Assembly: GCA_012728375.1 (NCBI GenBank)
Contig: JAAYFF010000029.1
Location: 1 to 58,134 of the forward strand
From: Bacillota bacterium
Lineage (GTDB): Bacteria > Bacillota > Dethiobacteria > DTU022 > UBA8154
Direction of reading: 5' to 3'
Length of the DNA: 58,134 nucleotides
The translations under genes were made by a program, and so were the position numbers. This document shows positions 45,679-53,647 of this stretch, piece by piece (the stretch's first letter is position 1; each line of letters begins with the position of its first letter). The notes below the pieces were generated by a model. That model ran no database searches and was not told the DNA's origin. It saw nothing but the letters and a program-made list of their open reading frames with translations.

Positions 45679-46725
45679 TTAGCTTTCCAGGACGATCTTC
45701 CCTTTGTTTTCTGAGGTTGCTTTTCCCACTATTGCTGGGTTTAAGCCCTTTTGACGGAGCAGCTGTAAGGCTTCCTCCGTTTTCTCCTCCGGCACGGCCA
45801 GCAAGAGACCGCCGGATGTCTGCGGGTCGCAGAAGAGATCCAGCAGCAGAGGATCAACCTTCTTTTGCATGAGCAAATTGGGCAGCAGGTATTCCCGGTT
45901 GCTCACCGCGCCCCCTGGTACCAGGCCCTGCCCGGCCAGGTCAAGGGTGCCTTCAATGATGGGAATAGATCCCGCGAAAAAGACAATACCGCATTCGTCG
46001 CTTTCCCGGATCATCTCAAAGGCGTGGCCCAGCAGTCCAAAACCGGTTATATCCGTACAGGCCTTAATTTCGAGCTCCCGGGCAACTTCAGCAGCTTCCT
46101 TGTTCAGGGTTGTCATCCAGTGGATAGCTTCCTCCAGGACAGGGGCAGGGACCATATCAGCCTTGAGTGCAGTGGTAATAATTCCTGTTCCCAGAGGCTT
46201 GGTGAGGATGAACCGGTCACCGGGCTTGACGCCCCCTTTAGTCCAGATCTTTTCCGGAGAAACGATACCTGTTACGGAAAGGCCGTATTTCGGCTCATTG
46301 TCATTAATGGTATGGCCGCCCACAAGAAGAGCGCCCGCTTCGGCAACCTTGGCAGCCCCGCCCCTTAGAATTTCCACGAGCACATCCGTCCCCAAAAGTT
46401 TACAGGGAAAACAGACAATGTTCATTGCTGTCAGGGGTTTGCCGCCCATGGCATAAACATCGCTCAGGGCATTGGCAGCGGCTATTTGCCCGTAATAGTA
46501 AGGATCATCCACAACAGGCGGAAAGAAATCAACGGTCTGTATCAATGCCAGTTCTTTGTTAAGCCGGTACACAGCAGCGTCATCGGGTATCTCTGTGCCG
46601 ACCAGCAGGTTTTCGTCAGCCTGAACCGGCAGAAGCGGCATGATTCTGGCCAGGTCCCCCGGACCCAGTTTGGCAGCTCACCCCGCGCTGGAGGACATTT
46701 GTGTCAGCCGGACTATTTTTTCCAT
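45679..46725 (-). CDS. selD: Selenophosphate synthetase, selenoprotein form (UGA at codon 16)
   Basis: SelD makes selenophosphate from selenide and ATP. The obvious open frame starts only at 46641, but reading from ATG 46725 gives MEKIVRLTQMSSSAG, then TGA (46680-46678), then AAKLGPGDLARIMPLLPVQA, which is the normal SelD N-terminus with selenocysteine in the catalytic Cys/Sec position and the essential Lys three residues later. An 8-bp stem with a GGG loop begins 9 nt after the UGA, fitting a bacterial SECIS. The remaining motifs (TVDFFPPVVDDPYYYGQIAA, GGHTINDNEPKYG, CDPQTSGGLL) are intact; total 348 residues. Confidence 0.93.
46650..46677 (-). promoter_or_regulatory. Putative bSECIS element of selD
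   Basis: CTGGGTCC-GGG-GGACCTGG folds into eight pairs (two of them G-U); the apical G-rich loop lies 18-20 nt after the UGA, within the distance known for bacterial SECIS elements. Confidence 0.6.
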
Positions 46726-46819
46726 GTAGCATTATTCTCCTTTTCCGGATTGTTGAAAAAAACTGTTTTCGCCTTTCAAAACTGAAAAAGACCCGGCGCA
46801 GTAACTTGTTTGTACAGTT

Positions 46820-46848
46820 ATCTTAGCACAGGTCCGATCTGTAGGCAA
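46820..46848 (-). promoter_or_regulatory. selD promoter
   Basis: TTGCCT (46848-46843), 17 nt, TAAGAT (46825-46820) on the minus strand. The predicted leader to ATG 46725 is about 85-90 nt; no known riboswitch fold recognised. Confidence 0.5.
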
Positions 46849-46906
46849 GGAACCGCCTTAAAAACCTACAGTAATTTTACACTAACCCTTTAAATTTTGT
46901 TTCGTT

Positions 46907-53527: not shown

Positions 53528-53640
53528 ATTTTTTCTTCGCTCCTTTTCCTTAGACTCGCCAGACAAGGGTACCTTCAGCATGATATTATACATCTAAATC
53601 TAAAGGATTTGCCAAGACCCTGACTGCGCGGTTAAAGGCA
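53528..53640 (-). promoter_or_regulatory. rplU leader region
   Basis: About 110 nt of untranslated leader between the promoter and rplU. In Firmicutes this position holds the L21 leader, a cis-acting autoregulatory RNA; GGTACCCTTGTCTGGCGAGT lies within it, but I did not verify a fold. Confidence 0.4.
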
Positions 53641-53647
53641 CTTAACA

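Follow-up and report, generated by a model that had tools for sequence, protein, structure and literature searches.

We identified an interrupted selD gene in the 58,134-nucleotide stretch of DNA analysed here (the window). In this Dethiobacter-like bacterium the gene almost certainly encodes a selenocysteine (Sec)-containing selenophosphate synthetase, with the UGA at 46680-46678 read as selenocysteine. The evidence supports its being an ordinary member of the long-known class of Sec-containing SelD proteins that has been shortened by simple gene calling. SelD is established as one of the bacterial selenoprotein families (PMC1794560, PMC4561486). FdhA and SelD are the most widespread bacterial selenoproteins, and SelD selenoproteins have been named in several Clostridia (PMC1794560), while the Sec/Cys position and the bSECIS of SPS genes have been treated in detail (PMC4561486).

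The selD frame and its catalytic position

The features of the gene, all on the minus strand, are as follows:
45679 to 46725, minus strand: selD, selenide, water dikinase (selenophosphate synthetase), 348 aa when TGA is translated as U, which gives Sec at residue 16
46678 to 46680, minus strand: in-frame TGA at codon (residue) 16, the catalytic position, almost certainly read as selenocysteine (conservation and alignment to PDB 2YYE)
46737 to 46741, minus strand: probable ribosome-binding site AGGAG, 11 nt 5' of ATG 46725 (sequence inspection)
46650 to 46668, minus strand: putative bSECIS hairpin, with 5' arm 46668-46661, loop GGG 46660-46658 and 3' arm 46657-46650

Plain ORF calling starts the gene at ATG 46641 and yields a product of 320 aa ending at 45679. 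The first-pass annotation had placed the conserved SelD N-terminus in frame upstream of this start with the TGA as the sole break, and this was borne out. With TGA translated as U, the frame runs from ATG 46725 to a TAA at 45679 and is interrupted only at 46680-46678; from the upstream TAA as far as the TGA region, ATG 46725 is the only usual start codon in this frame. The restored N-terminus reads MEKIVRLTQMSSSAG-U-AAKLGPGDLAR..., with the TGA in the context SSAG-U-AAKLGPGDL. The product gives a full-length match to the SelD family TIGR00476 from residue 6 (373.5 bits against a curated cut-off of 125), contains AIRS and AIRS_C domains in a domain search, and aligns with PDB 2YYE from residue 4 (E 2.1e-75). 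In this alignment residue 16, encoded by the TGA, pairs with the active-site Cys of 2YYE (SAG-U16-AAK19 against SSGCAAK), exactly the catalytic Cys/Sec position to which the TGA had been assigned from the sequence, and Lys19 corresponds to the conserved Lys that follows this position. E. coli SelD presumably has GCK after the catalytic position, where the window SelD has AAK after Sec.

We also found a second ATG just 5' of the selD start (46732; 46723-46732), which lies 4 nt 3' of GGAG and is one base off the selD frame. In a close relative (L018) the counterpart of this ATG is in frame with selD. A small indel may have shifted the selD start to ATG 46725, or the difference may be an assembly slip.

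The SelD encoded by a Dethiobacter alkaliphilus MAG (L047, JAENYV010000009.1) is 85% identical to that of the window, with the TGA at the same codon, and this identity points to a host that is a Dethiobacter relative (Bacillota). In both, selD is flanked by a Sir2 gene upstream and tyrS downstream. However, in the MAG the Sir2 gene and selD are separated by a gene (2078-2995) classed by eye as ThiF/MoeB/HesA-like, and the MAG's ATG just upstream is in frame with selD, whereas the corresponding ATG of the window is out of frame. A similar gene, also named by eye, lies immediately 5' of selD in another locus (L049, 2129-2989). The upstream side of the window selD (46732-46906) is a short intergenic stretch without it.

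Conservation of the TGA and the decoding machinery

The TGA at the position of codon 16 was present in 58 of 58 related selD loci, representing 49 distinct sequences, which were drawn from two overlapping collections; they were found by protein similarity and are of common ancestry, and so are not mutually independent. Among their sources are Dethiobacter, Syntrophomonadaceae, Actinomycetota, Desulfobacula and a spirochaete. Of the 60 genomes searched, which comprise the source genome and relatives, 58 yielded matches. Some of these matches are no more than distant paralogues, and the SelD-like matches that span the N-terminus have exactly one TGA each. The plasmid collection contained only SelD relatives of less than 60% identity. 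Two genomes, G018 (C213, C31) and G037 (C227, C159), each carry two divergent selD copies, every one of which has one in-frame TGA.

Under a loose filter, the window has 11 places where a long open frame comes after a TGA, and by eye none of the other TGA-bridged frames of the window contains a known selenoprotein motif. The selD TGA stands above chance because it is common to all 58 related loci, and not by virtue of a long open frame alone.

The earlier reading had also held that the host must decode UGA as selenocysteine, with SelA, SelB and SelC encoded elsewhere. All three genes were found on one contig of the source genome, a draft of 88 contigs (2.38 Mb, 96% complete), and this rules out the lack of selB and selC that had been named as grounds for rejecting the reading. 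On contig C72 (64806-68907), tRNA-Sec, selA and selB occur in that order on the minus strand. The tRNA-Sec (selC, 68907-68816) has the anticodon UCA and scored 72.9 bits against a cut-off of 47; selA and selB scored 600 and 389 bits, respectively. The SelB protein has EF-Tu-like domains together with the winged-helix domains SelB-wing_2 and wing_3, which belong to the C-terminal part of SelB that binds SECIS RNA. A lower-scoring tRNA-Sec match on contig C10 proved to be an ordinary tRNA-Ser.

These observations bear directly on the other ways in which the TGA could be explained. If it were a true stop, the gene would produce a 320-aa SelD from ATG 46641 without the catalytic N-terminus, or would be a pseudogene. 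The 320-aa product is indeed what plain ORF calling yields, but the codons upstream of the TGA are conserved in frame with it in all 58 loci, the frame 3' of the TGA continues unbroken, and the genome encodes the decoding machinery. This reading is strongly disfavoured by the conservation already, and we regard it as extremely unlikely. A sequencing or assembly error that turned a Cys codon (TGC or TGT) into TGA might be suspected in a draft genome, and a non-stop codon at 46678-46680 had been named as the observation that would overturn the selenoprotein reading. The same TGA, however, recurs in genomes from many groups that were assembled independently. Since it is identical in every related selD locus examined, an error of this kind is vanishingly improbable.

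The UGA might also be translated in another way, either through genome-wide reassignment or through near-cognate read-through that inserts Trp or Cys in place of Sec. Other modes of UGA read-through are known in general, which lends this proposal some plausibility. Nevertheless, of the window's 33 long non-overlapping ORFs, 11 end in UGA, and genome-wide reassignment is therefore very unlikely. In addition, the codon falls at the catalytic chalcogen position in a genome that has selA, selB and selC, and we give this proposal as a whole hardly any credence. Decoding of the selD UGA as selenocysteine is the reading we adopt below.

The putative bSECIS hairpin

The stretch that follows the UGA can form the hairpin CUGGGUCC-GGG-GGACCUGG (46668-46650), which begins 9 nt 3' of the UGA, with the loop at 17 nt. 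The loop of a bSECIS lies about 16-37 nt from the UGA. Over the 49 sequences, 81% of the helix cells are paired, against 78% in shuffled sequences, and none of 500 shuffles reached 81%; versions of the helix slid along the sequence gave only 21-67%. The pairing and covariation score is above nearly all shuffles and above all slid controls. One pair of the helix covaries, being UA in 23 sequences and GC in nine, and is the only pair with changes on both sides; it links a silent third position in a Gly codon to the second position in an Asp/Ala codon.

Folding energy was less telling. The energy of 46640-46680 is not significant against dinucleotide shuffles (z -0.6), 16% of synonymous recodings reach a fold as good as that of the selD hairpin sequence, and the synonymous recoding test gave mixed results between relatives. 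A search of the window with Rfam gathering thresholds found no family at the selD hairpin. The sole Rfam match in the window is the ribosomal protein L21 leader RF00559 at 53542-53643. The proposal of a bSECIS-like stem-loop 9 nt downstream of the TGA thus stands as regards its position, its conserved helix and its one covarying pair, but not as regards its folding energy. Overall, there is moderate support for a bSECIS at this hairpin, and only moderate because the sequences are related and a single pair changes on both sides.

In several relatives, which have GGGCC...GGACC, the favoured helix is displaced by a few nucleotides. Two overlapping, mutually exclusive helices are possible after the UGA, with loops about 3 nt apart, and the favoured one differs among relatives. 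It is conceivable that such a pair forms a switch tying Sec insertion to selenium supply, although we consider this very unlikely.

Predicted selenophosphate supply and use

The window SelD resembles the Sec-containing bacterial SelD proteins of TIGR00476 in its full-length match, the UGA at the catalytic position, the putative hairpin just 3' of it and the genomic selA, selB and selC, and there is no essential difference between them. Cys-type SelD proteins, such as that of E. coli, belong to the same enzyme family and are expected to catalyse the same reaction, but they have Cys at the site of the window's Sec and need no SECIS.

Judging by the known biology of these families, SelB would bind the mRNA stem-loop just 3' of the UGA and bring Sec-tRNA-Sec to the ribosome, which would read the UGA of selD as selenocysteine. 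The resulting Sec16 would occupy the place of the catalytic Cys of other SelD proteins, and the enzyme would make selenophosphate out of selenide and ATP. SelA would use this selenophosphate to make Sec-tRNA, and SelD would therefore feed its own synthesis. Two further uses would draw on the same selenophosphate: the formation of selenouridine in tRNA, marked by SelU, and the selenium-molybdenum hydroxylase pathway, marked by YqeB.

A second selenoprotein gene of the genome encodes formate dehydrogenase alpha (L078, G000:C48:5200-7194). It has one TGA, in CART-U-HAPT, at the site where Sec is known in this enzyme, and this TGA is followed by a strong hairpin (-19.8 kcal/mol). The search for GrdA gave no match in the genome, but its control gave none either, and the result therefore does not count as evidence of absence. 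Family searches identified both selU and yqeB, and selenocysteine, selenouridine in tRNA and the selenium-molybdenum hydroxylase pathway should therefore all be supplied by SelD.

The selD of the window leaves existing knowledge of selenoproteins unchanged. The corrected gene model nonetheless restores a catalytic residue that is otherwise deleted by the gene call, and the genome of this Dethiobacter relative contains marker genes for each of the three known selenophosphate uses.
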